Under the pieces are notes generated by a model that worked only from the letters and a program-made list of their open reading frames with translations, did no database searches and was not told the origin of the DNA. DNA of 64,000 nucleotides from Methylococcus capsulatus (lineage in GTDB: Bacteria; Pseudomonadota; Gammaproteobacteria; Methylococcales; Methylococcaceae): contig NZ_CP104311.1 in assembly GCF_036864975.1 (NCBI RefSeq), positions 1,094,001 through 1,158,000 on the forward strand, written 5' to 3'. Made by a program: the position numbers and the translations under genes. Positions 5,333-64,000 of the stretch are shown here, piece by piece (the first letter of the stretch is position 1; the number at the start of each line of letters is the position of its first letter).

Positions 5333-7093
5333 ATGAAAAAGCGTCTGGAAATCCTGCTCCGCAGCGCGCTGGAGCGACTCAAAACAGCCGGCGACCTCCC
5401 GGCCGACCAGGAAGTACCGCTTCAGATCGAACGCACCCGCGATCCGGCGCATGGCGATTTCGCGGCCAACACCGCCCTGCTGCTGGCCAAAACCGCTCGC
5501 TGCAATCCGCGTCAGTTGGCAGAAAAAATCCGCGCCGCGCTGCCCGAGGACCCGGCGGTCGTCCGCACCGAAATCGCCGGCCCCGGCTTCATTAATTTCT
5601 TCCTGGACCGTACCGCCCAGCACCGGGTCATCGCCGAGGTCCACGCCCAAGGTCCCGGCTTCGGCCGCAGCAGCATCGGAGGGGGGCGACGGGTACAGGT
5701 CGAATTCGTATCCGCCAATCCCACCGGTCCGCTCCACGTCGGCCATGGCCGCGGCGCCGCCTATGGTGCCGTCGTTGCCGACCTGCTCGAAGCGGCGGGT
5801 TTCGACGTACACCGGGAATACTACGTCAATGACGCCGGCCGGCAGATGGACATCCTGGCCGCCAGTGTCTGGCTGCGCTACCTGGAAGACTGCGGAGAGG
5901 TGCTGCCGTTTCCAGCCAATGGCTACCGCGGCGAATACGTCCGCGACATCGCGTCCGATCTTCACCGCACCCAGGGCGAGCGTTATCGAGCTTCCGCTGA
6001 CGCGGTTCTCACGGGACTGCCGCCAGATGAGCTTCAGGGAGGCGACAAGGAGGAATACATCGACGCCGTGGTGCGCAAGGCGAAAAACATCCTCGGCCCC
6101 GAGCGTTACCGCGAAGTGTTCACCGCCGGCCTCGACAGCATCCTGGACGACATACGCGACGATCTGGGCGAATTCGGCACCCATTATCAGGAATGGTTCT
6201 CCGAACTGAGCCTCACCGAAACCGGAGCCGTGGAACGGGCCTTGGAAAAGCTCAAAGCATCGGGCTACGTCTATGAGAAGGACGGGGCGCAGTGGTTCGC
6301 CTCCACCCGGCTGGGCGACGAGAAAGACCGGGTACTGGTGCGAGAGAACGGCCAGACCACTTATTTCGCCTCCGACGTCGCCTATCACCTGAACAAGCTG
6401 GAGCGCGGCTTCGACCGTATCGTCAACGTGTGGGGCGCCGATCACCACGGCTATATCCCCCGCGTCAAGGCCGCCATCCAGGCCCTGGGGGGCGATGCCA
6501 GCAAACTGGAAGTGCTGCTGGTACAGTTCGCCGTGCTGTACCGGGGTGCGGAGCGGGTGCAGATGTCTACCCGCTCCGGCGAGTTCGTGACCCTCCGCCA
6601 GCTCCGCAACGAGGTAGGCAAGGATGCGGCACGCTTCTTCTATGTGATGCGCAAATCCGACCAGCACATGGACTTCGATCTCAAGCTAGCCACCTCGCGA
6701 ACCAATGAAAATCCCGTGTACTACGTGCAGTATGCCCATGCCAGGGTATGCAGCGTGTTCCGCCAACTCGACGAAAAAGGCTGGGCACGGGATCTGGGGC
6801 GCGGGATGCGTCATCTGGAAAGACTCTGCGAACCGTATGAACTCACGCTGGTGGCCAGTCTCTCGCGCTACCCGGAAGTCGTGGAGCAGGCGGCGCTGCA
6901 ATACGCCCCGCATCACCTGGTGCACTACCTGCGCGATCTCGCCGCGGAATTCCACGGCTACTATAATAGTTGCCAGTTCCTGGTCGAGGACGGCGACCTG
7001 CGGGATGCCCGTCTGAATCTGATCGATGCCGTACGGCAGGTCATCGCCAACGGTCTCGGCTTGCTGGGCGTGTCCGCCCCCGAAACCATGTAG
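5333..7093 (+). CDS. argS: Arginine--tRNA ligase
   Basis: 586 residues, close to the usual class I ArgRS length. It charges tRNA-Arg with arginine in the cytoplasm. An N-terminal additional domain (about 1-110) is followed by the HIGH-type signature HVGHG (about residue 135) within [15 protein letters not shown]. The KMSKS-equivalent is replaced by QMSTRSG, as usual for ArgRS. The C-terminal DALR anticodon-binding region ends in [10 protein letters not shown]. The ATG at 5333 follows an AT-rich leader. The SPOR-domain gene starts 2 bases after its stop, an arrangement common in gammaproteobacteria. Confidence 0.97.
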
Positions 7094-31697: not shown

Positions 31698-33584
31698 ATG
31701 TTTTTCCACGACGAATTCGACGTGATCGTAGTCGGCGGCGGACACGCCGGCACCGAGGCCGCTCTGGCCGCGGCGCGGACGGGCGTGCGCACCCTGTTGT
31801 TGACGCAGAATGTCGAGACCCTGGGCCAGATGAGCTGCAATCCGGCCATCGGCGGCATCGGCAAGGGGCATCTGGTGAAGGAAATCGATGCCATGGGCGG
31901 TCTCATGGCACGGGCGGCGGACCGGGCAGGTATCCAGTTCCGCATCCTCAACGCGAGCAAGGGGCCCGCTGTGCGGGCGACCCGGGCGCAGGCGGATCGC
32001 AGCCTCTACCGCAGGGCGGTGCGCGAGGGACTGAGCGTCCAGGAAAACCTCAGCCTGTTCCAGCAAACCGTGGTCGACTTGATCGTCGAAGGTGGCAGAG
32101 CGGCTGGCGTCGTCACCCAGATGGGACTCAAGTTCCGTTCCCGCTGCGTGGTGCTCACGGTCGGGACGTTCCTGGCCGGACGCATCCACATCGGCCTGGA
32201 AAACTACGAGGGCGGCCGGGCGGGCGATCCGCCGGCGACCGATCTCGCGCGGCGCCTGCGAGATCTGGGATTCAAGGTCGCGCGGCTGAAGACTGGCACC
32301 CCCCCGCGCATCGACCGCCGCAGCGTCGACTTCAGCCGGATGGTGGAACAGCCGGGCGATGATCCAACGCCGGTGTTTTCCTTCCTCGGCAGGCGCGAGG
32401 AGCACCCGCCTCAGGTGTCGTGTTACATCACCCGCACCAACGAACGTACCCATGAGCTGATTCGAGCCGGTCTCGACCGGTCGCCGATGTTCACCGGCGT
32501 GATCGAAGGCATTGGCCCGCGCTACTGCCCTTCCATCGAAGACAAGGTGGTGCGCTTCGCCGAGCGCAATTCGCACCAGATTTTCGTCGAGCCGGAAGGT
32601 CTCGACAGCCTGGAAATCTATCCCAACGGCATTTCCACCAGCCTGCCCTTTGACGTCCAACTTGCCGTGGTGCGCTCGATCCAGGGGTTCGAGAACGCCC
32701 GGATCACCCGCCCCGGCTATGCGATCGAATACGATTTCTTCGACCCGCAGGATCTCCGTTACTCGTTGGAAACGCGCCACATGGAGAACCTGTTTTTCGC
32801 CGGCCAGATCAATGGCACCACGGGCTACGAGGAGGCCGCCGCGCAGGGGTTGCTGGCTGGTTTGAACGCGGCGCGCAAAGCGCGTGACTTGGAACCCTGG
32901 TGGCCGAGCCGGGGCGAGGCCTACCTCGGTGTGCTGGTCGACGACCTCATCACCCGCGGCACGTCCGAACCGTACCGTATGTTCACCAGCCGCGCCGAGT
33001 ACCGCTTGGTGCTGCGCGAAGACAATGCCGATCTGCGCCTCACTGAAACCGGCCGTGCCCTGGGATTGGTGGACGATGCGCGCTGGGCGGCATTCGAAGC
33101 CAAGCGCGAAGCCATCGAGACGCTGGGCGGGCGTCTTGCCGCGCGGCGTATCCGCCCCGACAGCAGTCCAGCCGAAAGCCGGAACGCGCTCGCCGCGATA
33201 CCGCTGCAGCGCGAAGCCAGTCTACTGGATCTGCTCAGGCGCCCGGATGTCGGCCTGGAACTTCTCGCCGGCTATGCTCCGGAGCTGTTCGAAGGTATGG
33301 ATGGGGCGGTGCGGGAACAGGTGGAAATCGCAGCCAAGTACACCGGCTACATCGAACGCCAGCAGGCCGAAATCGAGCGCGTCCGGCGCTACGAGGCTTG
33401 GCAGTTGCCGGACTCCATGGATTACGGCAAGGTCGTCGGGCTCTCCAACGAAGTGCGGGAAAAGCTCGGCCGGGTCAAGCCCGCCACGGTCGGGCAGGCG
33501 GCGCGTATTCCCGGCATCACCCCGGCGGCGATCTCGCTGCTGCTGGTGCATTTGCGCAGAACCGGCGCAGCGCAATGCCCCTGA
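31698..33584 (+). CDS. mnmG: tRNA uridine-5-carboxymethylaminomethyl modification enzyme MnmG
   Basis: 628 residues from ATG 31698 with GGCGGAG upstream, matching the family length and its usual N-terminus ([20 protein letters not shown], the FAD-binding GxGxxG). Further signatures are [29 protein letters not shown] and [14 protein letters not shown]. With MnmE it modifies the wobble uridine of several tRNAs. Earlier in-frame ATGs (from 31617) precede no family sequence. It overlaps rsmG by 10 bases. Confidence 0.97.
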
Positions 33585-50397: not shown

Positions 50398-50937
50398 ATG
50401 CTGTCGCGGCTTGATTCTCTTGTTGATGAAACTGGTGCACTACAAAGCAAGCTGATCCTGCTTGTTGGGCGCCCTGGGTGCGGCAAGACCCGACTGCTGG
50501 CAATGCTTGCCAATCGGCGCGGTGCGAAGGTCATGAATGTCGGAGCCGCGCTGGGAAAGCGCCTCGCGGCGTTGCCGCTGCGGCAGCGGGCACTCCAGGC
50601 CAATGTCGTCATGCGGGAGCTGGCCCAGAGTTACGCGAGCGGCGATCTGCTCCTGCTCGACAACATCGAGCTGCTGTTCGACCAAATGCTCAAGCTCGAT
50701 CCGCTGGATCTGCTCAAGCGCCACGCCAAAGCCCTTCGTGTTGTGGCGGTGTGGCCGGGAGAGCTACGTGATGGCCGCCTGATCTATGCGGAAATGGGGC
50801 ATCCGGAATATCAGGACTACGGCCTCGATGGCCTGGTCCCGTTCGAAATTGACAAATTCGCCGGGAGCGAATTTGGACGCACGGAGTGCGGCCCGCAGGG
50901 CGAACCCCAGGGAGGGGGTGAGCAAACGGTGAAGTAA
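50398..50937 (+). CDS. brxF: BREX type 3 P-loop protein BrxF
   Basis: 179 residues. Walker A GRPGCGKTRLL (24-34) and Walker B-like DLLLLDNIELLF (about 83-94) make a small ATPase; BrxF is the marker of type 3 BREX. Residues from about 151 to the stop (EIDKF then AGSEFGRTECGPQGEPQGGG) are encoded by a dispersed palindromic repeat, so the original C-terminus was probably shorter or different. It lies 50 bases after rsmE and 13 bases before brxC. No clear promoter was seen in the gap; read-through from the housekeeping genes is possible. Confidence 0.85.
   Translation: MLSRLDSLVDETGALQSKLILLVGRPGCGKTRLLAMLANRRGAKVMNVGAALGKRLAALPLRQRALQANVVMRELAQSYASGDLLLLDNIELLFDQMLKLDPLDLLKRHAKALRVVAVWPGELRDGRLIYAEMGHPEYQDYGLDGLVPFEIDKFAGSEFGRTECGPQGEPQGGGEQTVK
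50851..50921 (-). repeat. Two-hairpin palindromic repeat, copy A (in brxF)
   Basis: AAATTCGC (50854-50861), spacer of 5, GCGAATTT (50867-50874), then GC-rich sequence with GCCCGCAGGGCG. Its reverse complement shares a block of about 28 bases with copy C (61443-61469) and resembles copies B, D and E. Orientation minus relative to B, C and D. It supplies the last part of brxF. Confidence 0.75.
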
Positions 50938-50950
50938 AGGGGGAAAACGC

Positions 50951-53900
50951 ATGCGCTACGGGGATCTCATTCAGTTCGAGCCGATCGAGTCGGTCATTCA
51001 GCTGCTCGACGCCAATCGGCCCGATGAGGCAAAGAAGCTCGTCGCCACCTACGTCATCTCCGACGACATGGCCGAGCGGATCACCAAGCAGATGATCCCG
51101 CAGCTCTCGTTCGACGAATCGGTCGACCACAAGGGTGTGCTCGTGGTCGGCAACTATGGCACCGGTAAGTCGCATTTGATGTCGGTGCTGTCGCTGATCG
51201 CCGAGGACGCCGCCTACGTCCCCATGATCCGCCACCCCAAGGTCGCCGAGGCTGCCGGTGCGATCGCCGGCAAGTTCAAGGTGCACCGGATCGAGATCTC
51301 CAGCCAGATGTCCCTGCGCGACATCATCACGCAGGAGCTCGAGATTTTCCTGGAGAACCAGGGTGTTAGCTATTCCTTCCCGCCGGCCGACAAGGTGGTC
51401 AACAACAAGGCCGCCTTCGAAGAGATGATGGCCGCGTTCGACGAGGTGCACCCCAACCACGGCGTCCTCCTCGTCGTTGATGAATTCCTTGAATACCTGC
51501 GCTCCCGCAAGGACCATGATCTGGTGCTGGATCTGTCCTTCCTGCGCGAGATCGGCGAGGTCACCAAGCACCTGCGCTTCCGCTTCGTGGCCGGCGTGCA
51601 GGAGGCCATCTTCGACAGCAGCCGCTTCCAGCACGTGGCCGACAGCCTGTATCGCGTGAGCGAGCGCTTCACCCAGGTGCTGCTTGCCCGCCATGACGTG
51701 AGCTTTGTGGTGGCCGAACGCCTGCTCAAGAAGTCGGCCGACCAGCAACACAAGATCCGCACCTATCTCACGCCCTTCGCCAAGTTCTACAGCAATATGA
51801 ACGAGCGGATGGATGAGTATGTCCGCCTTTTCCCCGTTCACCCGGACTACATCGGCACCTTCGAGCGGCTGATCTTTACCGAAAAGCGTGGCGCGCTGGT
51901 CACCCTGCGCGACCAGATCCAGGCTCTCCTGGATGAGGAGGTGCCGACCGATCGCCCCGGCTTGATCGGCTACGACAAGTTCTGGGACACGGTCACCTCC
52001 AACTCGGTGCTGCGCTCAGACCCGAATATCGGCCCGGTGTTGAAGGTTGCGGAGGCGCTGGGCGAGCGCGTGCAAAAGGCCTTCACCCGTCCGCCCTACA
52101 AGGCGATGGCCATGCGGGTGATCAAGGGGCTGTCCGTACACCGCCTGACCACCGGCGGCGACATCTACGTGCCGGTGGGCCCAACGGCCGAGGAACTGCG
52201 CGACACGCTTTGTCTGTACCAGCCCGGCATCGAGGACATGGGCGGCGAGCCTTCCGACGACCTGCTGACCGCCGTGCAGACGACGCTGCGCGAGATCGTC
52301 AAGACGGTCAACGGCCAGTTCATCTCCAAAGCGCCAGATACCGAGCAGTACTACCTCGATCTCAAGAAGGACGTCGACTACGACGCCCAGATCGAAAAGC
52401 GCGCCGAAGCGCTGTCCGACGACGCCCTGGATCGTGCCTACTACAGCGCCATGATGCAGCTCATGGAATGCACCGATGAGCATGCCTACGTTACCGGCTA
52501 CAAGATATGGCAGCACCAGGTCGAGTGGCAGGACCGCCGCGTGGAGCGCAACGGCTACCTCTTCCTAGGGGCGCCCAACGATCGGCCGACCGCCCAGCCC
52601 GAGCGCGATTTCTACATCTACTTCATCCAGCCGTTCGAGCCGCCCCGTTTCCGCGACGACAACAAGACGGACGAGGTGTTCTTCCGACTGAAGGGGCTGG
52701 ACGACGCCATCAAGCGCCATCTGGCGTTCTACGCCGCTGCCCAGGAACTTGCTTCCACGGCCAGCTGCGCGGCAAAGGCCGTCTACCTGGACAAGGCCCG
52801 TCGCGCCTTAAGCGACATGAGCAAGTGGCTGCAGGACAAACAGATGACCGCCTTCGAGGTCACCTACCAGGGCAAGACCCGACGCCTTTCGGAATGGGCC
52901 AAGGGCGTGTCGATGCGCGACAAGCTCCGATTGGGCCCGGACGAGCGCGCCAACTTCCGCGACATCGTCAACGTCACCTCAGGTCTGGCTCTCGGCACCC
53001 ATTTCGCGGATCTTGCGCCGGAATATCCGACCTTCTCTGTCCTGGTCACCGAATCCAACCGCAAGCAGCTCATCACCAACGCCCTGAAGGCGCTGGCGGG
53101 TGGAACGCGCACCAAGGACGCCATCGCCATCCTGGACGCGCTGGAGATGTTGGACGGCGACCGCATCGAGCCCACGCGATCCAAGTACGCCCAGGAAGTG
53201 CTCAACCGGCTCAAGGCCAAAGGCCACGGGCAGGTGCTCAACCGCAGCGAGCTGCTCGTTCCGGTTGCTGGAGACATCGAATATTTCTACCCAACCAAGT
53301 ACAGACTGGAGCCAGACCTTCTGATCATCGTGCTGGGCGCGCTGGTCTACTCGGGCGACATCGTGCTGGCGATTACCGGCGACAAGATCGACGCCGGCAA
53401 GCTCTCGCTCCTGGCCGAACGATCCCTGGACGACCAGATCCAGTTCAAGCACATCGAGCCGCCCAAGGAGATCAATGTCGCCGTCCTGCGCGCGCTGTTC
53501 GAGCTGCTGGGCCTGCCGTCCGGCCTTGCCCAGATGGCGACGCAAGGCAAGGAAGAACCGGTCAAGAAACTGCTGGATGCCGTGGCCAAGCTGGTACAGC
53601 GTGTGCTCACGGTCGGCACCGACCTGCAGAACCGCCTCAGCTTCTGGGGCCAGTCCCTGCTGCGCGAAGAAGAGCTGCGCGATTGGCGCACACGGCTGGA
53701 AGCGCTCAAGGGCTTCCTGGAAGGACTGTCGCCCTACAACACTGTCGGCAAGCTCAAGAACTTGCGCATCACCCAGGACGACATCGAGACTCAGAAGAAG
53801 AACCTCGATGTGCTTGCCGCAGTGGAGAGACTGCGTGACCTGGTTGCCGAGCTGGGCAATGTTGCCGCCTACCTCTCCCAAGCCGAAATGGTGCTGCCCG

Positions 53901-54679
53901 GCGACCATGCCTGGGTGCAGCAGGCCCAGGCTGCCCGCAAGGACATCCTCGACAAGCTCGCCGAGGACCGCAGTGCGCAGCATGCCGCCGAGTATCGCCA
54001 GCGCCTGGCCACGCTCAAGAAGGACTACATCACCGCCTACGTGGCGCAACACAGCAAGGCCCGGCTCGGCGTGGCGGAAGACAAGACCAAGTCCGCATTG
54101 CGCCGTGACCCGCGCATTGTGACCCTGCGCGCCCTGGCCGGCATCTCCCTCATGCCCACCGGCCAGCTCACCACCTTCGAAGACAAGCTGGACAAGCTCA
54201 AGAGCTGCGCGTCCCTGGTGGAAAGGGAGCTGGAAGCCAGCCCGGTCTGTCCGCACTGCGGCTATCGCCCCGCCAACGAGCAGGGCGATTGGCTTCCGGC
54301 GGCCAACGTCCTCAAGGCGCTGGACGACGAGCTCGACCGCTTGGTCCAAGGTTGGCAACAGACGCTGGTCGACAACCTGGAAGACCCGATCATCCAGGCC
54401 AACTTCGAGCTGCTGAAGGCCACGCAGCGCGACCTGATCCAGGGCTTCCTGGCCTCGAAGGCCTTGCCCGACCCGGTAACTCCGGAGTTCGTTGCCGCCG
54501 TACAGGAGGCGCTGTCCGGCCTTGAGAAGATCGTGGTCACCGGCGATGACATTAAGAAGGCCCTGCTCACTGGCGGCTCGCCGGCGACGCCTGACGAATT
54601 GCGCCGCCGCTTCGAGTCGTTCATGAACGAGCGCTGCAAGGGAAGGGATGCGAGCAAACTGCGGTTCGTGGTGGAGTGA
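50951..54679 (+). CDS. brxC: BREX type 3 ATPase BrxC (PglY-like, DUF6079)
   Basis: 1242 residues. Walker A GNYGTGKSHLMSVL at 67-80 and Walker B HGVLLVVDEFLEYL (about 170-182) near the N-terminus, followed by a very long helical body with charged coiled stretches, typical of BrxC/PglY. One CPHCG near residue 1102 could be half a zinc site. BrxC forms a complex with PglX/PglZ that blocks phage DNA replication in other BREX types. ATG 50951 is preceded by AAAGGGGG. This gene carries no in-frame palindromic repeat, unlike brxF, brxHII and pglZ. Confidence 0.88.
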   Translation: MRYGDLIQFEPIESVIQLLDANRPDEAKKLVATYVISDDMAERITKQMIPQLSFDESVDHKGVLVVGNYGTGKSHLMSVLSLIAEDAAYVPMIRHPKVAEAAGAIAGKFKVHRIEISSQMSLRDIITQELEIFLENQGVSYSFPPADKVVNNKAAFEEMMAAFDEVHPNHGVLLVVDEFLEYLRSRKDHDLVLDLSFLREIGEVTKHLRFRFVAGVQEAIFDSSRFQHVADSLYRVSERFTQVLLARHDVSFVVAERLLKKSADQQHKIRTYLTPFAKFYSNMNERMDEYVRLFPVHPDYIGTFERLIFTEKRGALVTLRDQIQALLDEEVPTDRPGLIGYDKFWDTVTSNSVLRSDPNIGPVLKVAEALGERVQKAFTRPPYKAMAMRVIKGLSVHRLTTGGDIYVPVGPTAEELRDTLCLYQPGIEDMGGEPSDDLLTAVQTTLREIVKTVNGQFISKAPDTEQYYLDLKKDVDYDAQIEKRAEALSDDALDRAYYSAMMQLMECTDEHAYVTGYKIWQHQVEWQDRRVERNGYLFLGAPNDRPTAQPERDFYIYFIQPFEPPRFRDDNKTDEVFFRLKGLDDAIKRHLAFYAAAQELASTASCAAKAVYLDKARRALSDMSKWLQDKQMTAFEVTYQGKTRRLSEWAKGVSMRDKLRLGPDERANFRDIVNVTSGLALGTHFADLAPEYPTFSVLVTESNRKQLITNALKALAGGTRTKDAIAILDALEMLDGDRIEPTRSKYAQEVLNRLKAKGHGQVLNRSELLVPVAGDIEYFYPTKYRLEPDLLIIVLGALVYSGDIVLAITGDKIDAGKLSLLAERSLDDQIQFKHIEPPKEINVAVLRALFELLGLPSGLAQMATQGKEEPVKKLLDAVAKLVQRVLTVGTDLQNRLSFWGQSLLREEELRDWRTRLEALKGFLEGLSPYNTVGKLKNLRITQDDIETQKKNLDVLAAVERLRDLVAELGNVAAYLSQAEMVLPGDHAWVQQAQAARKDILDKLAEDRSAQHAAEYRQRLATLKKDYITAYVAQHSKARLGVAEDKTKSALRRDPRIVTLRALAGISLMPTGQLTTFEDKLDKLKSCASLVERELEASPVCPHCGYRPANEQGDWLPAANVLKALDDELDRLVQGWQQTLVDNLEDPIIQANFELLKATQRDLIQGFLASKALPDPVTPEFVAAVQEALSGLEKIVVTGDDIKKALLTGGSPATPDELRRRFESFMNERCKGRDASKLRFVVE

Positions 54680-54700
54680 ATATTTCTGCATTAAAATGAC

Positions 54701-54716
54701 CAGACTGACTAGTCTG
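54701..54716. promoter_or_regulatory. Inverted repeat before the antitoxin gene
   Basis: CAGACT (54701-54706) and AGTCTG (54711-54716) with a 4-base spacer, 16 bases before the antitoxin ATG. Phd-type antitoxins repress their own promoter through such short palindromes, so this is a likely operator; TTAAAAT at 54691-54697 may be part of the promoter. Confidence 0.45.
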
Positions 54717-54731
54717 TTTGTGGAGGTTTCC

Positions 54732-54983
54732 ATGCGTGAATGGGCATTGCAAGACGCCAAAGCGCGTTTGAGTGAAGTCGTGCGGCTGGCGATGGAGCAC
54801 GAACCGCAAGAAATAACCTTGCGCGGTGAGCCGGCGGTGGTGGTGCTTTCGCGGGAGGACTACGACCGTTTGACCCAGCGGCGCGAGTCACTCGTGGAGT
54901 TCATGCGGTGTTCTCCGCTCTATGGCGCGGATGACGTCGAATTTTCACGCGACCAGAGTCTGACGCGCGAGGTCGAGCTTTGA
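54732..54983 (+). CDS. Phd/YefM-type antitoxin
   Basis: 83 residues from ATG 54732 with TGGAGG upstream. The N-terminus WALQDAKARLSEVVRLAMEH and ITLRGEPAVVVLSREDYDRL is the DNA-binding Phd/YefM fold; the C-terminal 30 residues (FMRCSPLYGADDVEFSRDQS) would wrap the toxin. It overlaps the toxin start by 4 bases (TTGA). It stands 52 bases after brxC inside the BREX operon with its own likely operator. Confidence 0.88.
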   Translation: MREWALQDAKARLSEVVRLAMEHEPQEITLRGEPAVVVLSREDYDRLTQRRESLVEFMRCSPLYGADDVEFSRDQSLTREVEL

Positions 54984-55402
54984 GCTATCTCATCGACACC
55001 AATGCGCTTTCCGAACTGAAAAAACGACAACCTCACCCGGCGGTGGTGGGCTGGTTCACCGAACGGCCGGCCCCATCGCTCTACCTTTCCGTACTCACGC
55101 TGGGAGAATTGCGCAAGGGGATCGAAGCGATCGCGGAAGGCACGCGTAAGACGGCCTTTCTTGACTGGCTCGAAAACGACCTGCCGCAGTATTTCGCGGG
55201 ACGCATTTTGCCGATCGATGCGCGCACCGCCGACCGTTGGGGGCGGCTCTGCGCCATGGCCGCGCGTCCACTACCCGCCATCGACAGCCTGCTCGCCGCT
55301 ACCGCCCTGGAACATGGCTTGACCCTGGTGACCCGCAATCTGGACGATTTCGATCTGCCCGGGATTCGCGTCATCAATCCTTGGAAGGAAAACCAGCCGT
55401 GA
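54980..55402 (+). CDS. VapC/FitB-type PIN-domain toxin
   Basis: 140 residues from a TTG start that overlaps the antitoxin stop. PIN-domain acidic residues are in YLIDTNALSELKK (Asp), LTLGELRKGIEAI (Glu), LPAIDSLLAATALEHGL (Asp) and VTRNLDDFDLPGI (Asp), as in FitB-like VapC ribonucleases. It would cleave RNA when the antitoxin is lost. Its stop overlaps the pglXI start (GTGA), so toxin and methyltransferase are translationally coupled. Confidence 0.9.
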   Translation: MSYLIDTNALSELKKRQPHPAVVGWFTERPAPSLYLSVLTLGELRKGIEAIAEGTRKTAFLDWLENDLPQYFAGRILPIDARTADRWGRLCAMAARPLPAIDSLLAATALEHGLTLVTRNLDDFDLPGIRVINPWKENQP

Positions 55403-58178
55403 ACGACATCTTCCAGGAACAACCTCGAACCGCCTCGGGCCCCGTCGAGTGTTTGGGGCAGGTTTTTCCAAGCGACAAGGCGCGTCGCGAACATTACCTA
55501 AAACTGCTGGCCGATAAGCTGAAGGACCCAGAATTCCGCCAGCAGGAAGGCTTCCCGCAGGGGACGGATGAGGCGATCCTGGCCATGTCCGATCCGCCGT
55601 ACTACACGGCATGTCCGAATCCGTGGTTGGCAGAGTTCATCAAGCACTACGGCACGCCCTATGACCCAGCGGTGAAGTATTCGCGTGAGCCGCTGGCCAT
55701 CGACGTCTCGGTCGGCAAGACCGATCCGATCTACAAGGCGCATTCCTACCACACCAAGGTGCCGCACCTGGCCATCGTGCCGTCGATCCTGCATTACACC
55801 GAACCTGGAGATCTCGTGCTCGACGGCTTCGCGGGATCCGGCATGACCGGCGTGGCCGCAGCCTGGTGCGGCTGCGCGCCGGATGCTTACCGGCATGAAC
55901 TGGAGATCGAATGGAAGAAGCAAGGCAAGCCAGCGCCCAAGTGGGGCGCGCGTCGCGTCATCCTCAACGACCTGTCGCCGGCGGCCACCTTCATTGCCGC
56001 CAACTACAACCTGCCGTTCGACGTGGAGGCCTTCGCCCGCGCAGGCAAACAACTGCTCGATGAGGTCGAGCAGGAAATCGGCTGGATGTACGAAACCATG
56101 CACACCGATGGCAAGACCAAGGGCGGATCGAGTACACGGTGTGGAGCGAAGTCTTCACCTGTCCAGAGTGCGCTGGTGAGGTGAATTTTCTGGATGAAGC
56201 ACTGGACGAGGAAAGCAAGCGGGTCCGCGATGCTTTTCCGTGCCCACACTGTGGCGTGGAGTTGACGAAGAAGAAGCTTGAGCGGCTCTATGTTTCGAAG
56301 CTCGACCGCGCCACCGGAAAGACGCTTTCGACCCCGAAGCGCGAGCCGACGCTGATGTCCTATCGAATTGGCAGCTCCCGCTACGAGAAGAAGCCCGACG
56401 CCAATGATCTGGCCTTGCTAGCGAAGATTGACGCACAGTCATTGCCACCCGAAGTTCCCGTCGTTGAATTTCCCTATGCTGACATGTGGGAAGCGCCGCG
56501 TATGCGTGATAAGGGCATCACCCATACACACCACATGTTCCTGCCCCGCGCTGCGCAAGCCATGGGCAGGCTGTGGGAGAAGGCGCGCTCCCACCCCGAT
56601 GCGCGCCTCCGGGCGTTTCTGCTGTTCATGGTGGAGCAGGCGATTTGGGGTTTCTCAGTTCTAAATCGTTATCGTCTGCGAGCGTACTCACACGTCAATC
56701 AATATCTAACAGGCGTGTACTATGTGCCAGCACAATGTGCCGAGCCATCCCCGAATTACAACCTCGGAGGAAAGCTGGATCGGCTAGTCAAGGCCTTCCG
56801 CAACTTGAAACCCGGCGCTGGCGAAACGGCAGTGTCCACCGGCAGCGCGGCCCGGCTGCCGCTGCCCGACGACGCGGTGGATTACATCTTCACCGATCCG
56901 CCCTTCGGCGAGAACCTGTCCTATGCTGAGTTGAATTTCCTGGTCGAGGCGTGGCACGGCGTGATAACGCAAGCCAAGCTGGATGCCATCGTAGATCGCG
57001 CAAAGGAAAATCGAGCCGCTCAGAAGTCGGTGGACGACTACCGCAAGCTGATGGCTGATTGCTTCAAAGAATATTTCCGCGTTCTCAAGCCCGGCCGCTG
57101 GATGACCGTGGTGTTCTCAAACACGCAGGCTGCCGTGTGGAACAGCCTACAAACCGCCATGCAGGAGGCGGGCTTTGTCGTTGCCAATGTGTCAGCTCTC
57201 GATAAGCAGCAAGGTAGCTTCAAGGCTGTCACAACGGCGGTGGCCGTCAAGCAAGACCTGGTGATCTCGGCCTACAAGCCCAACGGCGGGCTGGAACAGC
57301 GCTTTGCCGAGCGCGGTGCGTGCGAGGCTTCGGCCTGGGATTTCGTGCAGACGCATCTCAAGAACCTTTCGGTGACCAAAGTCAAGAATGGCGCGCTGGA
57401 ATTCATCATCGAACGCGACCCGCGCATTCTTTTCGACCGCATGGTGGCCTGGTTCGTGCGGCACAATACACCGGTGCCCATGTCATCTCAGGAGTTCCAA
57501 TCTGGTCTTGCTCAACGCTTTGTCGAGCGCGACGGCATGATCTTCCTACCCGAGCAGGTGGCCGAATACGACAAGAAGCGCGCCCAGATGGCGCAGGCGC
57601 CGCAGATGGAGCTGTTCGTCTCCGACGAGCGCAGCGCCATCGATTGGCTGGCTGACTTCCTCAAGCGACGTCCTTCGACCTACCAGGAACTGCACCCCGA
57701 GTTCATCACCCAGCTCGGCGCCGGCTGGAAGAAGCACGAGAGCAAGCCCGAGTTGGCCGCGCTGCTGGAGGACAACTTCCTCAAGTACGACGGCACCGGC
57801 GACGTGCCCAGCCAGATCCACGCTTACCTTTCGTCGAACTTCAAAGAGCTGCGCGGTTTGGAGAAGAACGACCCGCGTCTGGTCGCCAAGGCCAAGGATC
57901 GCTGGTACGTGCCCGATCCGAACAAGGCGCAGGACCTGGAGAAGAAACGCGAGAAAGTGCTCAAGGAGTTCGATACCTACCTGGCCGCCACCGGGCGCCG
58001 GCTCAAGGAGTTCCGGCTGGAGGTGCTGCGCGCCGGCTTCAAGGCGGCCTGGGCTAGGCGCGACTACCAGACCATCATCAAGGTGGCCCAGAAGATCCCG
58101 GACGAGGCGCTGCAGGAAGACGAGAAGCTGCTGCTCTGGTATGACCAGGCGCTGACAAGAATGGAGAGCGGACTATGA
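55399..58178 (+). pseudogene. pglXI: BREX type 3 DNA methyltransferase PglXI, split by a one-base deletion
   Basis: Start GTG 55399 (overlaps toxin stop). The first part (261 codons, stop at 56182-56184) has DPPYYTACPNPWL, LDGFAGSGMTGVAAAW (SAM motif I) and LNDLSPAATFIAANYN. The second part lies in the -1 frame from about 56124 and continues without a break: RIEYTVWSEVFTCPECAGEV, a zinc ribbon with CPHCG, the catalytic TDPPFGENLSYAEL, MTVVFSNTQAAVWNSL, and a long C-terminal region. Joined length would be 926 residues, a DUF1156-type adenine methyltransferase. Adding one C in GGGCGGATC (to GGGCCGGATC, 56121-56129) restores the frame. Could be a sequencing error, an inactivating mutation or a phase-off state; there is no homopolymer and no -1 slippery heptamer. 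Confidence 0.85.
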
Positions 58179-59209
58179 GCAAGATCAACCACGTCAGGCT
58201 GGAAAATTTCACGGCCTTTGCCAAACTGGACCAAGCGCTATCGCCAGGGGTCAATGTCATTATTGGTGCCAACGGCACGGGCAAGACCCATTTGCTCAAG
58301 ATCCTCTATGCCGCGACAGCGATTACCACGGGTGAAGATCAGGAAAAGGGTTTCGCCCGCAAGCTGCTTGGCGTCTTCAATCCCTACCAGGCGCGCATGA
58401 CACGTCTAATACGACGACAGCGGGGCTTGCCCGCCGCCGAGATCACAGTCACGCGAGATGATGGCGCCAAGCTCAAGGCGGTCATCGACAACCAGAAAGC
58501 CGACGTGGAGGATGTGCGTGTCACGGGTGAAACGAAGTGGCGGGGAGCCGGATTGGAATCCGCCTACATTCCGGTCAAGGAAATGCTCGCACATGCTCCC
58601 GGTTTTCTCGCTACAGCCTCGAAACGGGAAATTGCCTTCGAGGAAGTCTATGTCGACATCATCAAGAAGGCCTTTCTTCCGACGCTAAAGGGCCCTATCG
58701 CTGCGAACCGCCAACGGCTGTTATCGACGATTCAAAAGGCCATGGAAGGCAAGGTGGTAGCCAAGGGCGAGCACTTTTTTCTAAAGAACAGCCAAGGCGA
58801 GTTGGAGTTCACCTTACTCGCCGAAGGTATGCGCAAGCTCGCGCTGGTTTGGCTATTGATCCAGAACGGCACGCTGCTGTCTGGCTCTGTTCTCTTCTGG
58901 GATGAGCCGGAAGCCAACCTGAACCCATCCCTCATGGGCGATGTCGTCGAAATCATCCTGGAACTGCATCGTCTTGGGGTTCAGGTCTTCCTGACCACGC
59001 ACAATTACGTGCTGCTCAAGGAGTTCGACTTGCGTCAGAAAAAGGGCGATGCCATCCGCTATATCTCCCTGTATCGCGACGCACAGAAGGCGGTCGTGGC
59101 TAACGCCAGCGACAGCTACACCGGTATCGACCCCAATGCGATCGCCGGGACATTCAGCGATCTCTACGACCGCGAACTGAAGCGCAGCCTTGGAGGGTTG
59201 GTCGAATGA
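58175..59209 (+). CDS. AAA/SMC-like ATPase embedded in the BREX operon
   Basis: 344 residues; the start overlaps the pglXI stop (ATGA). ABC/RecF-like layout: N-terminal strand KINHVRLENFTAFAKLDQ, Walker A GANGTGKTHLLKIL (31-44), signature-like LLAEGMRKLALV (214-225), Walker B VLFWDEPEANLNPSL (D243 E244) and an H-loop LTTHNYVLLKEF (His276). Between Walker A and the signature is a middle segment of about 170 residues without a long coiled coil. It resembles the AAA15/21-type ATPases of OLD- and PARIS-like defence pairs and is coupled to a nuclease-like gene. It is not one of the core BREX type 3 genes. Confidence 0.8.
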   Translation: MSKINHVRLENFTAFAKLDQALSPGVNVIIGANGTGKTHLLKILYAATAITTGEDQEKGFARKLLGVFNPYQARMTRLIRRQRGLPAAEITVTRDDGAKLKAVIDNQKADVEDVRVTGETKWRGAGLESAYIPVKEMLAHAPGFLATASKREIAFEEVYVDIIKKAFLPTLKGPIAANRQRLLSTIQKAMEGKVVAKGEHFFLKNSQGELEFTLLAEGMRKLALVWLLIQNGTLLSGSVLFWDEPEANLNPSLMGDVVEIILELHRLGVQVFLTTHNYVLLKEFDLRQKKGDAIRYISLYRDAQKAVVANASDSYTGIDPNAIAGTFSDLYDRELKRSLGGLVE

Positions 59210-59715
59210 CGATTCTGGCCGAGGGGGATTTGCAGATCGCCTTGCCGGCTAATGCAGTAGGGCGAAAGTTCGATGACGAGGCAAGCCACGGCCTGAGCCA
59301 CTGCATGAAAGCGGTGGATTTCATCGTGGAACTGGATGACCGGGTTCTGTTCATCGAGTTCAAGGACCCGGAACATCCTGCGGCGCAGCCCAAAGATCAG
59401 AAGAAGTTCCTGCAAAAGTTCCTTAGTGGAGCGCTGGATGCCGATCTGAAAACGAAGTACCGGGACTCTTTCCTGTACGAATGGGCATCAGGTCAAGCGA
59501 CGAAGCCCATTTACTACTTGGTGCTGATCGGCGCGAGCACTTTGTCCGATGCCGATTTGTTGGCCCGGACCGACGCACTGAAACGGCAGATTCCAACAAC
59601 CGGCCCGGACGACAAGCCGTGGGAAAGGTCGTTCGTGGCTGGTTGTGCTGTCATGAATATCAAGACGTGGAACAAGGCCTTGCCCCAGTATCCTGTCAGC
59701 CGACTCAGCACATGA
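59206..59715 (+). CDS. Small PD-(D/E)XK nuclease-like protein paired with the ATPase
   Basis: 169 residues; start overlaps the ATPase stop by 4 bases and stop overlaps the brxHII start by 4 bases. AVDFIVELDDRVLFIEFKDP places Asp38, then Glu51 and Lys53 (E-F-K) on adjacent strands, the core of a PD-(D/E)XK nuclease, with a Glu at 25 as possible first acid. The rest is helical (QKKFLQKFLSGALDADLK; LVLIGASTLSDADLLARTDA). Nuclease activity is inferred from the motif alone. With the ATPase it forms a two-gene effector-like module between pglXI and brxHII. Confidence 0.65.
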   Translation: MTILAEGDLQIALPANAVGRKFDDEASHGLSHCMKAVDFIVELDDRVLFIEFKDPEHPAAQPKDQKKFLQKFLSGALDADLKTKYRDSFLYEWASGQATKPIYYLVLIGASTLSDADLLARTDALKRQIPTTGPDDKPWERSFVAGCAVMNIKTWNKALPQYPVSRLST

Positions 59716-62700
59716 ATGCTTGGGACATCGGTGACTGGTGCTGGCACGCCCGACAGGCGTCACCCTGCCGGGTGATCGACCGAGAGGCACTGTGGGGCGA
59801 GGTCGTCTTCCGCGTCTGGCTACCGGCCAAGGATGCCGTGGTGCGCGCCCGCGCGCAGGATCTTGGCGCGCTGACCAGCGTGCGCCCGACCGTGGAGCAG
59901 ATTCTGCATACAGCAGCGGCGGCCAAGCTGCTGGAAGCGATGGAAGACAACCTGCTGCTGGCGCCGATGCAGACGAGCGTCAAGCCGCTGCCGCACCAGC
60001 TCTACGCGCTAAACCGAGCCATGAGCCAAAACCGCATCCGCTACCTGCTGGCGGATGAGGTGGGACTGGGCAAGACCATCGAGGCGGGCTTGATCCTGCG
60101 CGAGTTGAAGCTTCGCGGCATGGTACGTCGGGTGTTGGTGGTGGCGCCGAAAGGCCTGGTGCGCCAGTGGCAGATGGAGATGCGGCTGCACTTCGGCGAG
60201 CACTTCCGCTTCATCGAGCCATCTGAACTCACCGCCTTCCGTTCCTTTTCCTCCCCTCTCCCTCTGGGAGAGGGGCCGGGGGTGAGGGTGAACGACGAAA
60301 ACCTCTGGCGCATGCACGACCAGGTGATCTGCTCGCTGGATTCGGTGAAACCCATCGAGGGCCGGCGCGGCTGGAGCCTGGAGCAACTCGCCACTTACAA
60401 CCGCGAGCGCTTCGAGGACCTGATCTCGGCCGGTTGGGATCTGGTGATCATCGATGAGTCGCACCGTCTCGGCGGGAGTACCGAGCAGGTTGCCCGCTAC
60501 AAGCTGGGTGCCGCCCTGGCCGAGGCCGCGCCCTATCTGCTGCTGCTGTCCGCTACGCCGCACCAGGGAAAGACGGACCAGTTCCTGCGGCTGATGCAGT
60601 TGCTGGATCGCGAGGCGTTTCCGGACGAAAGCAGCATCAACCGTGACCGGGTACGCCCGTTCGTGATCCGCACCGAGAAGCGGGCCGCCATTGACGCGGA
60701 AGGCCAACCGTTATTCAAGCCCCGGTCCACCCGGCTCCAGGCCGTGGCGTGGCAGGACAGGCATGCCGCCCAGCAGCGGCTCTACGAGGCGGTGACGGAC
60801 TACGTGCGGCACGGTTACAACCAGGCGATGGCCGCCAAGCAGCGGCACATCGGCTTCCTGATGATCCTGATGCAGCGGCTGGTGACGTCCAGTACAGCCG
60901 CCATCCGCGCCACCCTGGAAAAACGCCTGGCCCTGCTGGATGCGCCTGCTGCGCAGGCGAACCTGCTGCCGGATCCATCCCTGAACCCGGCCCCTTCGGG
61001 GCCAGCCTGGCGGCTGTCCAAAATCGCTCCAAGCGATTTTGTCGAGGCGGTTGACCCGGATGAGTGGGCAGAGCTCGACGGCCAATCCCAGCTCGACATC
61101 GCCGTGCAGGCCAGCGGCTGGGAGCGGGAGAAGTCGGAAGTCGAGATGCTGTTGGAGCTGGCTCGCGAAACCGAGCGACAAGGAACGGATGCCAAGGCGG
61201 AAGCGCTGTTGGAGTTGATCTACAAACTCCAGCAGGAAGAGAACGACCCGCAGCTCAAGGTGCTGGTCTTCACCGAATTCGTGCCCACCCAGGCCATGCT
61301 GGCGGAGTTCCTGGAAAGACGGGGCTTTTCGGTGGCGCTGCTCAACGGCGGCATGGACCTGGATGCGCGCACCCGTGCGCAGCAGGCCTTTTGCGGACTC
61401 CATCCCCGGAGTCCGTCCCTTCGGGACCAGCCTGGCGGCTGTCCAAATTCGCTCCCGGCGAATTTGTCACGCGGTGCTCAAATACTGGTCTCCACCGACG
61501 CCGGCGGTGAGGGACTGAACCTCCAGTTCTGTCATGTCGTCGTCAACTTCGACATGCCGTGGAACCCGATGCGTTTGGAGCAGCGCATCGGCCGCGTGGA
61601 CCGCATCGGTCAGCCTCATGTCGTGCGCGCCATCAACTTCGTGCTGGAAGGCACGGTGGAGCACCGGGTGCGCGAGGTGCTGGAGGAAAAGCTCGCTGTC
61701 ATTGCCCAGGAGTTCGGCGTCGACAAGGCGGCCGATGTGATGGACTCGGTGGAGGTGGAGCCGATCTTCGACGAACTGTTCCTGCACGGGCTGCAAGATC
61801 CAGCATCGATCGACAAGGAATGCGATGCGGTCATCGACCAGATTCGGGAGAAGGTGGCAGCCAGCCGCAAAGGCATCGATCTGCTGAACGAAGAACACGC
61901 GCTGAAAGCCGATGATGCCCGCAAATGGCGGGATCATCCGGCGCAGTACTGGTTGGAGCGCGCGATCACCGCCGGGTTGCCTCTGCGTGGCGGCATGGCT
62001 GTCAGAGAAGGGGATGGTTGGCGAATTCGTTGGCCGGATGGGGTAGGGAGCGACGAATCGGCAGGATTGCCGATTTGCGCGCCGAAGGCGCCCCTTGGGG
62101 CGAGCGGCATGGATGTCGCGAGTGAATCTCCCCGTGTCTGCTTCGACGCGCGCACCGCCGAACAGAACCCTGAGATGGAGTGGATCACGCTGGAAGATCC
62201 ACGCGCCCGCGCAGTCATCAGCGAGCTGCCGCGCTGCGTGGCGGGCCAGCCGCTGCCGATTGCAGCGGTGACCGGCCTGCCCGATACGGTGCATGGCGTG
62301 TGGTCGCTGTGGGAGATCAGCATCAGCGCGTCCAATCTCTCCGAGAGCTTCAACCAGCGGCGATTCCTGCCCGTGTTTGTCACCGACGATGGCCGCGCCT
62401 TCGTGCCGACCGCCAAGCGGATATGGGATTTGCTGCTGACCGAGAACGTGACGCTCGCACCAAAGGTCGAGGTGGAGAACGCCTTGGCCTGCTTCGAAAC
62501 GTCGTTGGCTGCGGCCAAAGTGCAAGGGGAGAGGCTCTTCAGGGATCTGCTGGAGGAGCACCGCACCTGGCTCGCCGAAGAGCGCGAACGGGCGCGCTAC
62601 GCCTTCGAGGCGCGTTACCAGGCGATCGGCCGCATAGGCCTTCCCGCGGTCAGGGAGCACCGCCGCAAACGGCTCGAAGCTGAGTTTGATGCGCGTATGG

Positions 62701-62789
62701 CAGCGCTGGCGATTGCTGCAGCCTGCACGCCGGATCTCAACGCGGTGCTAATGCTTCGCATTGGTCACCCGGGAGGTGCGCCAGCATGA
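59712..62789 (+). CDS. brxHII: BREX type 3 SNF2-like helicase BrxHII
   Basis: 1025 residues from ATG 59712, which overlaps the preceding stop (the frame is open further upstream but inside the nuclease gene). RecA1: LADEVGLGKTIEAGLILREL (114-133), DESH box in VIIDESHRLGG (about 245), SATPHQGKTDQF. RecA2: LVFTEFVPTQAMLAEFL, ILVSTDAGGEGLNLQF, RLEQRIGRVDRIGQPH. It has four extra in-frame stretches that match DNA repeats: about 181-193 (SPLPLGEGPGVRV), 420-443, 562-585 and 780-801. Where the RecA2 one (copy C) sits is a loop just before ILVSTDAGGEG. Its stop overlaps the pglZ start (ATGA). Helicase function is inferred from family motifs. Confidence 0.88.
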   Translation: MNAWDIGDWCWHARQASPCRVIDREALWGEVVFRVWLPAKDAVVRARAQDLGALTSVRPTVEQILHTAAAAKLLEAMEDNLLLAPMQTSVKPLPHQLYALNRAMSQNRIRYLLADEVGLGKTIEAGLILRELKLRGMVRRVLVVAPKGLVRQWQMEMRLHFGEHFRFIEPSELTAFRSFSSPLPLGEGPGVRVNDENLWRMHDQVICSLDSVKPIEGRRGWSLEQLATYNRERFEDLISAGWDLVIIDESHRLGGSTEQVARYKLGAALAEAAPYLLLLSATPHQGKTDQFLRLMQLLDREAFPDESSINRDRVRPFVIRTEKRAAIDAEGQPLFKPRSTRLQAVAWQDRHAAQQRLYEAVTDYVRHGYNQAMAAKQRHIGFLMILMQRLVTSSTAAIRATLEKRLALLDAPAAQANLLPDPSLNPAPSGPAWRLSKIAPSDFVEAVDPDEWAELDGQSQLDIAVQASGWEREKSEVEMLLELARETERQGTDAKAEALLELIYKLQQEENDPQLKVLVFTEFVPTQAMLAEFLERRGFSVALLNGGMDLDARTRAQQAFCGLHPRSPSLRDQPGGCPNSLPANLSRGAQILVSTDAGGEGLNLQFCHVVVNFDMPWNPMRLEQRIGRVDRIGQPHVVRAINFVLEGTVEHRVREVLEEKLAVIAQEFGVDKAADVMDSVEVEPIFDELFLHGLQDPASIDKECDAVIDQIREKVAASRKGIDLLNEEHALKADDARKWRDHPAQYWLERAITAGLPLRGGMAVREGDGWRIRWPDGVGSDESAGLPICAPKAPLGASGMDVASESPRVCFDARTAEQNPEMEWITLEDPRARAVISELPRCVAGQPLPIAAVTGLPDTVHGVWSLWEISISASNLSESFNQRRFLPVFVTDDGRAFVPTAKRIWDLLLTENVTLAPKVEVENALACFETSLAAAKVQGERLFRDLLEEHRTWLAEERERARYAFEARYQAIGRIGLPAVREHRRKRLEAEFDARMAALAIAAACTPDLNAVLMLRIGHPGGAPA
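60253..60290 (+). repeat. REP-like palindrome read in frame in brxHII
   Basis: CCCCTCTCCC (60253-60262) and GGGAGAGGGG (60266-60275) with a 3-base loop, then CCGGGGGTGAGGG. This CCCTCTCCC...GGGAGAGGG...GGTGAGGG form is a widespread intergenic palindrome in proteobacteria. Here it is translated as SPLPLGEGPGVRV within brxHII. Confidence 0.8.
60973..61043 (+). repeat. Two-hairpin palindromic repeat, copy B (in brxHII)
   Basis: Hairpin 1 GGCCCC-TTC-GGGGCC (about 60989-61003); then CCAGCCTGGCGGCTGTCC identical with copy C; hairpin 2 AAAATCGCT (61020-61028), CCA, AGCGATTTT (61032-61040). The altered hairpin 2 arms (AAAATCGCT against AAATTCGC) have changed together, keeping the pairing. Encodes about residues 420-443 of brxHII. 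Confidence 0.8.
61399..61468 (+). repeat. Two-hairpin palindromic repeat, copy C (in brxHII)
   Basis: CATCC start at 61401; hairpin 1 GTCCC-TTC-GGGAC (61415-61427); CCAGCCTGGCGGCTGTCC; hairpin 2 AAATTCGC (61445-61452), 5-base loop, GCGAATTT (61458-61465). It is read in a different frame from copies B and D, giving PNSLPANLS where they give xFAPGELV-like residues. Confidence 0.8.
62053..62115 (-). repeat. Two-hairpin palindromic repeat, copy E (in brxHII)
   Basis: Hairpin 2 AATCGGCA (62056-62063), GGAT, TGCCGATT (62068-62075), then hairpin 1 CGCCCC-TT-GGGGCG (62089-62102) and GCATGGATG. Same order as copy A, i.e. minus orientation. Stem sequence differs from the other copies but pairing is perfect, so the structure is conserved rather than the bases. 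Confidence 0.65.
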
Positions 62790-64000
62790 CTGCCTGGGTT
62801 GACCGCATCCTCAAGGAGTTTCCCGTCGATCTGGCCCGGCTCTGGATCGTCGCCGACCCGGACGATGTGCTGCTGCAGAGCCAAGTGTTGTCGGGACTGC
62901 GCGAGCGTGGCTTTGAGGTATTGCCCTTCGAGGACAGCATCACTTTCCGGGCGGAGTACGAAGAGCGCTATCGGGCGGCGTGGGATCGCGGTGAGCCGGG
63001 GCCATCCCGCGCCTTGATCCTGCATCTGCCCGGCACGAACGTCAGCGACTTGCCTTGGGACTACCTGCGTCAGGCACGGAAGCTCTCTTTAAGTCTCGCC
63101 GAGTTGCTCCCCAAGCTGAGCTATGCCGTGGTGAGGCAACTGGGTAGCGAGATGCTGCCCTCCTTGTTCGAAGCGCAGGCGCGGCACGCCCATCAAGCGC
63201 TGGGCGAAGCCGCGACCAAGGAGTTCGTGCTGACGCACATCTTTCGCATCAGCCCTCACCTGATCACGCGCCCGGAGGACTTTTGGCGTGAGCTCCTTCG
63301 TCTGCACTACCGCGAGGCGGCCCTTCCACCCGTGCTCGCGCAGCACGTGGGGCAAGTGGTCGGTGAGCATGACGCGTTGCGGACACCATCCCTGGCATCC
63401 GCCCCTGACGGGGCCGCCGTTCCGGCATCCCAATTCGCTCCCGGCGAATTGGTCAAAGGCATACCTATCGCCGAGTTGTTTGCAAACAAGAGCATCACCA
63501 TCCGTGTCGTGCAGGAAGCCTGGTTTCGCTATCTCACCAGGCTGGGAGTCACTGGAACCCGCACGGGTGAACCCACACCGCCCGATTACGTCGCAAAACT
63601 CGACCTGCCTTTCGACCACCATGACGTCCGCGTGATCGTCGACTCGATGTTCCTGGACGGCACGCTGCACCCGCTGGTGGTGCAGGGCGTGCCGGCCACC
63701 CTGCCGGAATGGGCCAAGGCCGGTGTCGTGCAGGACCCGGCGGCGATGCGGAACCTGGTACTCGAAGGCATCAAGAACCTGAAGGCGGAAATGCCGACCA
63801 TCGAGTCCCCACACCGCGACTGGACCCATTTCTCGCGTCGGCTCGGCGAAGTCATCTCGCGTTTTCATGGATTGGATGCGGCCCGGGCGGAAAGCATCAA
63901 GGACTCGATGCGAGACCTGGTTAGCTCTGCCGACGATTGCTTGCGTGAATGGGTAGGGAAGCATTACGCGGATCTATTGTCCTTGCCGGCCTTCACGCGG
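62786..64000 (+). CDS. pglZ: BREX type 3 phosphatase-like PglZ, 3' end missing
   Basis: 405 codons from ATG 62786 to the window edge with no stop. The start overlaps the brxHII stop (ATGA). N-terminal sequence MTAWVDRILKEFPVDLARLW, then LWIVADPDDVLLQ and a long helical region match the N-terminal part of type 3 PglZ proteins; the alkaline-phosphatase-like PglZ domain with its metal ligands should lie beyond the window. Residues about 200-224 (SLASAPDGAAVPASQFAPGE) come from palindromic repeat copy D. brxA, the usual last gene, would be downstream. Assignment rests on synteny plus N-terminal similarity by eye. Confidence 0.8.
   Translation, partial: MTAWVDRILKEFPVDLARLWIVADPDDVLLQSQVLSGLRERGFEVLPFEDSITFRAEYEERYRAAWDRGEPGPSRALILHLPGTNVSDLPWDYLRQARKLSLSLAELLPKLSYAVVRQLGSEMLPSLFEAQARHAHQALGEAATKEFVLTHIFRISPHLITRPEDFWRELLRLHYREAALPPVLAQHVGQVVGEHDALRTPSLASAPDGAAVPASQFAPGELVKGIPIAELFANKSITIRVVQEAWFRYLTRLGVTGTRTGEPTPPDYVAKLDLPFDHHDVRVIVDSMFLDGTLHPLVVQGVPATLPEWAKAGVVQDPAAMRNLVLEGIKNLKAEMPTIESPHRDWTHFSRRLGEVISRFHGLDAARAESIKDSMRDLVSSADDCLREWVGKHYADLLSLPAFTR
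63386..63455 (+). repeat. Two-hairpin palindromic repeat, copy D (in pglZ)
   Basis: CACCATCCCTGG start; hairpin 1 GCCCC-TGAC-GGGGC (63401-63414); hairpin 2 CAATTCGC (63431-63438), 5-base loop, GCGAATTG (63444-63451), then GTCA. The outer pair has changed from A-T to C-G on both arms relative to copies A and C, a compensatory change. Confidence 0.8.

Follow-up and report, generated by a model that had tools for sequence, protein, structure and literature searches.

A four-hairpin palindromic DNA element, probably mobile, lying in frame within BREX genes of Methylococcus capsulatus

In this study we examine a family of palindromic repeats carried by a bacteriophage exclusion (BREX) locus of Methylococcus capsulatus, at the end of a 64,000-nucleotide stretch of its genome (assembly GCF_036864975.1, contig NZ_CP104311.1, positions 1,094,001 to 1,158,000; hereafter the window). 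Sequence comparison leads us to propose, with a probability of roughly 0.8, that the copies represent a palindromic DNA element, mobile but non-autonomous, which has four hairpins in 72-75 nt, inserts whole and would be tolerated in frame as a passive linker. An initial annotation of this DNA had described five copies of a two-hairpin repeat within coding sequence. We find each of these stretches close to the coordinates given, in stop-free frames of brxF, brxHII (three copies) and pglZ, and their occurrence in both orientations (minus strand for A and E) and in differing reading frames was confirmed; the hairpin count was too low, since four hairpins are seen in each unit.

The element and its copies in the window

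As read from the window copies and their relatives, the standard unit is 72-75 nt long, starts with TGCGG, ends with AATTTG and carries four hairpins in a row: H0 of about 8 bp around CATCCCTG, H1 of 4-5 bp with a loop that is often TTC, H2 of 5 bp, and H3 of 9 bp around a TCCNG loop. Its two ends are not inverted repeats of each other. Copies A and C, credited earlier with about 28 shared bases, have 29 in common, and the linker shared by B and C measures 21 bases rather than 18. Copies were scored with a covariance model (R1) built from eight of them, with B and C in the training set and A and D outside it, and E-values within the window were computed with filters off. In the list below, G003 is a second species of the genus, whose BREX locus is collinear with that of the source genome (G000), the main blocks being ~85-93% identical in DNA sequence, and L130 is a locus of a Halieaceae metagenome-assembled genome.

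Copy A, 50853..50924, minus strand: 72 nt, in brxF near its C-terminal end; 63.8 bits, E 4.1e-14; site filled in G003
Copy B, 60967..61041, plus strand: 75 nt, in brxHII; E 7.7e-21; site filled too in G003 and L130
Copy C, 61392..61466, plus strand: 75 nt, in brxHII, directly 5' of what we take to be helicase motif V; E 2e-23; absent in L130
Copy E, 62042..62119, minus strand: 78 nt, in brxHII; a divergent, degenerate relative with hairpins; 15.7 bits, E 0.027
Copy D, 63378..63452, plus strand: 75 nt, in pglZ; E 2e-14

The clear matches in the unfiltered scan of the window are A, B, C and D, and no others. Copy E scores below a 19.5-bit match at 31709-31777, and the model alone does not separate it from chance; we place it in the family because homologues show an exact 78-nt gap at its site and because it has the hairpins. 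The 19.5-bit match, which by eye lies inside an mnmG-like gene and is taken as chance, is the best within positions 1-50,000; the initial annotation had noticed no copy in the roughly 50 kb of housekeeping DNA.

Filled and empty sites

In all six brxHII homologues compared, five of which are 84-91% identical to the window protein, the alignment has gaps of exactly 75 nt at B, 75 nt at C and 78 nt at E; all five pglZ homologues (L130, L097-L099, L155) have a gap of exactly 75 nt at D. Alignment with homologues thus reveals precise gaps, not the same protein segments, which supports the suggestion of the initial annotation that palindromic elements lie in frame within these genes much as those of Rickettsia do. 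These comparisons cover B, C, E and D; copy A is backed by the model and by the filled site in G003.

Occupancy also varies among relatives. In L130 site B is filled and C and E are absent, a private 75-nt copy lies elsewhere in brxHII, and another copy occurs at the start of pglZ. G003 has all of A, B, C, D and E, together with four extra copies at sites that are empty in the window (72 nt in brxC, 75 nt at the pglZ start, 75 nt in pglZ and 75 nt in brxA), the lengths of which are all multiples of three. Three of these empty sites are as follows.

Empty site in brxC, 53684..53685, unstranded: filled by a 72-nt copy in G003
Empty site directly after the pglZ ATG, 62788..62789, unstranded: filled by a 75-nt copy in G003; L130 likewise has a copy at the start of its pglZ
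Empty site in pglZ, 63037..63038, unstranded: filled by a 75-nt copy in G003

At the pglZ/brxA end of the window there is a compound insertion of 150 + 180 nt where L130 has a single 75-nt copy, an exception to the pattern of simple insertion; four copies besides A-E are found at this junction, just past the window end.

Ten filled/empty junctions were picked by hand from the alignments (nine from BREX and one from E. coli, leaving aside A, E and the compound insertion at the end of pglZ). They share the same complete ends, with the cut at N^TC in eight and at N^TG in two, and none of the ten shows a target site duplication. Across 151 flanks, position +1 is T in 146 and position +2 is C in 108 and G in 39, such that the 3' junction, compared here with the end of CGTC-type repeats, reads TTTG followed by the target T and then C or G; GTAG was found at the ends of none of 19 listed copies. 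These junctions show that the element inserts whole, in either orientation, just 5' of TC or TG and usually after T, without target duplication.

Maintenance of the palindrome and effects on host genes

That stem pairing is kept through paired changes, as claimed in the initial annotation, is borne out across the wider family: among 100 matches (94 distinct rows) in an alignment fitted to R1, 93.3% of cells are paired and 23 of 26 pairs show changes on both sides, with all four helices contributing. None of 500 shuffles gave pairing values as high as those observed, and pairing falls below 47% when the partner is slid by one column. G.T and A.C cells are about equally frequent (35 and 37 of 2349); a constraint acting on RNA would favour G.U, so it seems to be as DNA that the palindrome is maintained, through a single-stranded DNA function or through palindrome repair. 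No Rfam family match accounts for the copies in L059, L060, L061, L130 and L177, although in L060 one copy is overlapped by a match to a group II intron (6308-6478). At this same locus (L060 4578-6489), four copies of the element are clustered round the remnant of a group II intron, which comes with a gene for reverse transcriptase.

Between G000 and G003 the ratio of nonsynonymous to synonymous substitution rates in host codons is 0.124 for brxHII, 0.134 for brxC, 0.160 for pglZ and 0.465 for brxF. In the six inserts shared by the two genomes, taken together, nonsynonymous changes outnumber synonymous ones by 27 to 11, whereas the host codons of brxF, brxHII and pglZ have about 158 nonsynonymous and 288 synonymous changes (P 3e-5, odds ratio 4.5). 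The host genes thus stay constrained while carrying their inserts, brxF least so, and the inserted peptides look nearly neutral. Most units in the 100-match set are 71-75 nt long, and with identical sequences removed and loci limited to those with gene predictions, unit length is divisible by three in 30 of 37 genic copies versus 30 of 54 intergenic ones (P 0.014). All six frames are open in 15 of 54 intergenic copies versus 13% of dinucleotide shuffles, and in 26% of copies versus 4.7% of shuffles that keep the pairs; as the copies share ancestry, we make no claim of a built-in six-frame openness.

Distribution across genes and genomes

The family is found genome-wide and the element thus recurs well outside the five copies first described. 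Copy C as a BLAST query gives 26 matches in its own genome (3.43 Mb, one contig), the last few of which are chance-like, and R1 gives at least 29 matches at E<=1 and at least 23 at E<=1e-5 among the best 150 of 1144 candidates scored. In the 100-match set, which comes mainly from the genus, relies on a home-made gene finder and counts copy D twice, 40 matches lie within predicted genes, 57 are intergenic and 3 span borders. Twenty proteins with genic copies were checked by Pfam, several of them having no Pfam match. Among the identifiable hosts is NuoG, at the predicted N-terminus of which, directly after the residues MPD, four species of the genus (L061, L194, L209, L178) have tandem 24-residue units. 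Their numbers are 1, 2, 3 and at least 5, which makes this a variable-number repeat in a complex I subunit. A further genome (G007) has copies at the predicted N-termini of TgpA and TldD and within an Sfp-type transferase, while the predicted PglZ N-termini of G009 and G013 carry copies as well; in G013 (L265) the peptide suggests one element nested inside another.

The special tie to a defence operon that the initial annotation had drawn finds no support, given the intergenic majority, the NuoG, TgpA, TldD and Sfp-type hosts, and a second BREX locus of the same genome, where a search of 20 kb gave no copy and whose brxHII pieces are 89-91% identical. No copy occurs in the BREX locus of M. capsulatus Texas (L098) either, and a survey of the brxHII loci of named genomes found copies in 3 of 80 (L130, Halieaceae; L144, an uncultured Methylococcaceae; L097, Thiobacillus).

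Beyond the source genome, R1 matches at E<=1e-3 occur in 28 of 41 genomes (our own and 40 relatives). In a sample of the class, scored for no more than 12 candidates per listed genome, 110 of 369 genomes have a match at E<=1e-6. In a sample of the phylum, with 11 candidates scored per listed genome, 35 of 398 genomes match, 25 of them within the class (our own included) and 10 outside it, of which nine fall in one family. A Klebsiella copy used as query matches 604 of 5426 E. coli genomes, and matches were found in 21 records of Pantoea agglomerans plasmids, one of which was confirmed by R1. In a phage collection, two Klebsiella phage records match a partial query, and a search with the consensus gave no match. 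Two genomes of other families (G165, G211; L259, L260, L261, L262) carry copies of 93-101 bits near genes that have ParB-like and DNA methyltransferase matches; the window brxHII as query found no match in either.

Proposed mechanism and alternative explanations

The DNA-level pairing suggests that the element moves as a folded single strand, with a transposase or recombinase probably acting in trans. Given a unit of mostly 72 or 75 nt with few stops, an insertion into a gene would usually add 24-25 residues and leave the frame intact. Selection on the host gene, with little on the insert, points to a host protein that takes up the new segment as a passive linker, which would allow copies to persist. 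Tandem arrays may grow by insertion of a unit at the T^TG end of another or by slippage, and the sites shared between lineages suggest that copies may travel together with the BREX locus.

A number of observations weigh against this proposal. The alignment from which pairs were counted (A2) was itself fitted to the model, and its counts lean toward pairing. Shortened copies of the element exist, and intergenic units of 71, 73 or 74 nt, or shorter, are common, so that the keeping of frame within genes is partly a matter of selection; the low number of stops may likewise be due to a single ancestral sequence. Placing the inserts on a structure model, as had been suggested, was possible for brxHII, and the resulting AlphaFold model (mean pLDDT, the predicted local distance difference test score, 54.7) is too poor to decide: its lowest-confidence stretches include inserts B, C and E, and it lends no support to a surface-loop placement. 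The BREX locus in the window may itself be impaired, as its pglXI is split into two frames and the system is therefore possibly not fully working. Furthermore, the 180-nt part of the compound insertion holds a repeated 30-nt host stretch alongside a copy, with a period of 105 nt (L059 2214-2348), which we attribute to duplication after the insertion rather than to duplication of the target. Finally, a search for the enzyme at Y1-transposase loci found the element within ~1.5 kb of 0 of 33 (30 taken from many more matches in 41 genomes, plus the three of the source genome), and 2 of the 41 genomes have copies but no Y1 match.

These last counts also weigh against a narrower form of our explanation, in which the element is of the repetitive extragenic palindromic (REP) type and is mobilised along a single-strand route by a Y1/HUH transposase of the REP-associated tyrosine transposase (RAYT) kind. 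An enzyme of the RAYT type is the obvious candidate: such a route would suit the short target, the lack of target duplication, the DNA hairpins and the tandem units, and Y1 genes are present in 37 of 41 genomes. Copy number correlates weakly with Y1 count (rank correlation, rho 0.37), but genome size does as well (rho 0.43), 11 genomes have Y1 genes and no copies, and the element has no GTAG end. No RAYT gene flanked by the element was found at the loci scanned, and we hold this form to be possible, with the odds leaning somewhat against it. The three Y1/RAYT-type genes of the source genome (L027, L028, L029) lie, by eye, amid other inverted repeats that are unrelated to the element; in L027, for instance, GGTGGATAAGCGAAGCGCATCCACC stands to either side.

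It is also conceivable, though we think it unlikely, that no dedicated enzyme is involved and that copies arise by template switching in replication or by single-strand capture at short T-rich junctions. No enzyme has been found, the junctions have a one-base ambiguity (T), tandem arrays have a period of 72 or 75 nt, and the repeated 30-nt host stretch would fit a copying process. Yet copying errors should vary in their ends, whereas the ten junctions share identical and complete ones, an argument that the shortened copies elsewhere weaken.

Selection within the BREX genes, with inserted peptides or hairpins tuning BREX as regulatory RNA or as protein adaptation, seems to us quite improbable. 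It draws on a marked local excess, in that 8 of 23 copies of the source genome lie in the ~15.5 kb of the first BREX locus where 0.10 would be expected, and 11 of 57 in G003 where 0.24 would be expected, and on several sites being common to G000, G003 and L130. However, this enrichment is inflated by shared descent and tandem units, which are not independent events; the inserts show an excess of amino-acid change; the second BREX locus showed no copy over the 20 kb scanned; the family resides in unrelated genes and largely between genes; and the lack of a preference for G.T gives no sign of an RNA-level constraint. The link to BREX probably reflects local amplification and tolerance rather than function. 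The remaining notion, that the stretches are ordinary conserved BREX protein segments with chance hairpins, has nothing in its favour among our observations and retains next to no probability, being refuted by the exact empty sites in close homologues and at odds with copies in different frames, on both strands and in unrelated genes.

Relation to known repeats

Interruptions of about 70 bp at fixed sites within enterobacterial repetitive intergenic consensus (ERIC) sequences of enterobacteria were reportedly described by Cromie et al. in 1997 and by Wilson and Sharp in 2006. To our knowledge they are known only as ERIC interruptions, whereas the four-hairpin family occurs in and between genes of many genera. 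At L73, the one E. coli locus read, an ERIC-like repeat is interrupted at GGGGAT^TCACT by a unit of 71 nt (R1 53.2 bits, E 1.3e-11), and a 69-nt unit lies at the same GGGGAT^TCACT point in Klebsiella (45.8 bits, E 4.8e-10); the interrupted host repeat in both is presumably ERIC. Because the flanks of L73 and of K-12 panC gave no clean alignment, with the entire ERIC-like repeat by eye missing from K-12 there, an uninterrupted stretch from elsewhere in E. coli was used for comparison. This stretch has full-length, one-piece matches in five listed rows, and at >=80% query cover it matches 5375 of 5426 E. coli genomes, possibly including joined pieces.

These findings lead to a broader proposition, for which we consider the odds about even: that a single four-hairpin DNA superfamily extends across Gammaproteobacteria, moved as a folded single strand by a trans-acting enzyme at T^T(C/G), that it unites ERIC interruptions with protein-inserting palindromes, and that it acts as a natural inserter of in-frame linkers of 24-25 residues, as in BREX components and NuoG. 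It would join scattered observations, namely ERIC interruptions and intragenic REPs, into one testable family and give the hunt for its enzyme a clear aim. The filled and empty sites of close relatives document, outside Rickettsia, where such repeats were first described, a repeat by which conserved protein genes, apparently that of a complex I subunit among them, have several times been lengthened by a fixed peptide. Its natural insertions mark permissive sites in BREX proteins.

Rickettsia palindromic elements (RPEs) are repeats that lie in frame within unrelated protein genes and are tolerated by the protein (PMC2229807, PMC10969869), a property that the four-hairpin element shares. RPEs differ in being 105-146 bp long with a 12-bp terminal inverted repeat (PMC2229807), while the units here are of 72-75 nt with four hairpins in a row and no terminal inverted repeat seen, and occur mainly in Gammaproteobacteria. 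GTAG and CGTC REPs are likewise short palindromes that are also found inside genes, and those of the CGTC group likewise have no dedicated transposase (PMC3733652). REPs measure 20-40 bp, have GTAG or CGTC ends and often form dimers (PMC3733652), in contrast to a four-hairpin unit ending in TTTG before a target TC or TG. Miniature inverted-repeat transposable elements such as ERIC, RUP, Correia and YPAL resemble the element in being small, non-autonomous, folded and at times in frame within genes, but have target duplications and, YPAL excepted, terminal inverted repeats (as tabulated in PMC2229807), neither of which was seen here. Intragenic palindromic repeats are thus a known kind, and what appears to be new, in the literature searched, is the unit, its spread and its insertions in BREX and NuoG. 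No account of the family in BREX, NuoG or Methylococcus was found in the open-licence literature, most subscription papers lying outside that search.

The BREX locus and neighbouring features

PADLOC identifies brxF, brxC, pglXI (as two open pieces), brxHII and pglZ in the window, with brxA just past its end. We take the locus to be BREX type 3, for which we assume the order brxF, brxC, pglXI, brxHII, pglZ, brxA, and the genes found match it. The genes that bear on the element are the following.

brxF, 50398..50937, plus strand: PADLOC BrxF, 5.3e-43; host of copy A
brxC, 50951..54679, plus strand: PADLOC BrxC; no copy in the window, the G003 orthologue having a 72-nt copy at the site after 53684
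brxHII, 59727..62789, plus strand: PADLOC BrxHI/BrxHII, E 0; host of B, C and E
pglZ, 62786..64000 (frame continues to 65005, past the window), plus strand: PADLOC PglZ, 3.1e-110; host of D, with other copies at the 3' end

The two pglXI pieces, at window 55237-58178, are overlapping reading frames, and the G003 locus, which carries 11 model-matching copies, has pglX in one frame. Nested in the operon, at window 54648-55402 and 58175-59715, are a Phd/PIN toxin-antitoxin pair and a HEC-02 candidate defence pair identified by PADLOC. At window 60240-60300, part of brxHII is replaced by a second palindromic repeat, unrelated to the element (CCCCTCTCCCTCTGGGAGAGGGGCCGGGGGTGAGGG, with the peptide SPLPLGEGPGVR), which makes this part longer but keeps it in frame; the repeat also aligns in the G003 orthologue, and inspection by eye shows one like it in L029.

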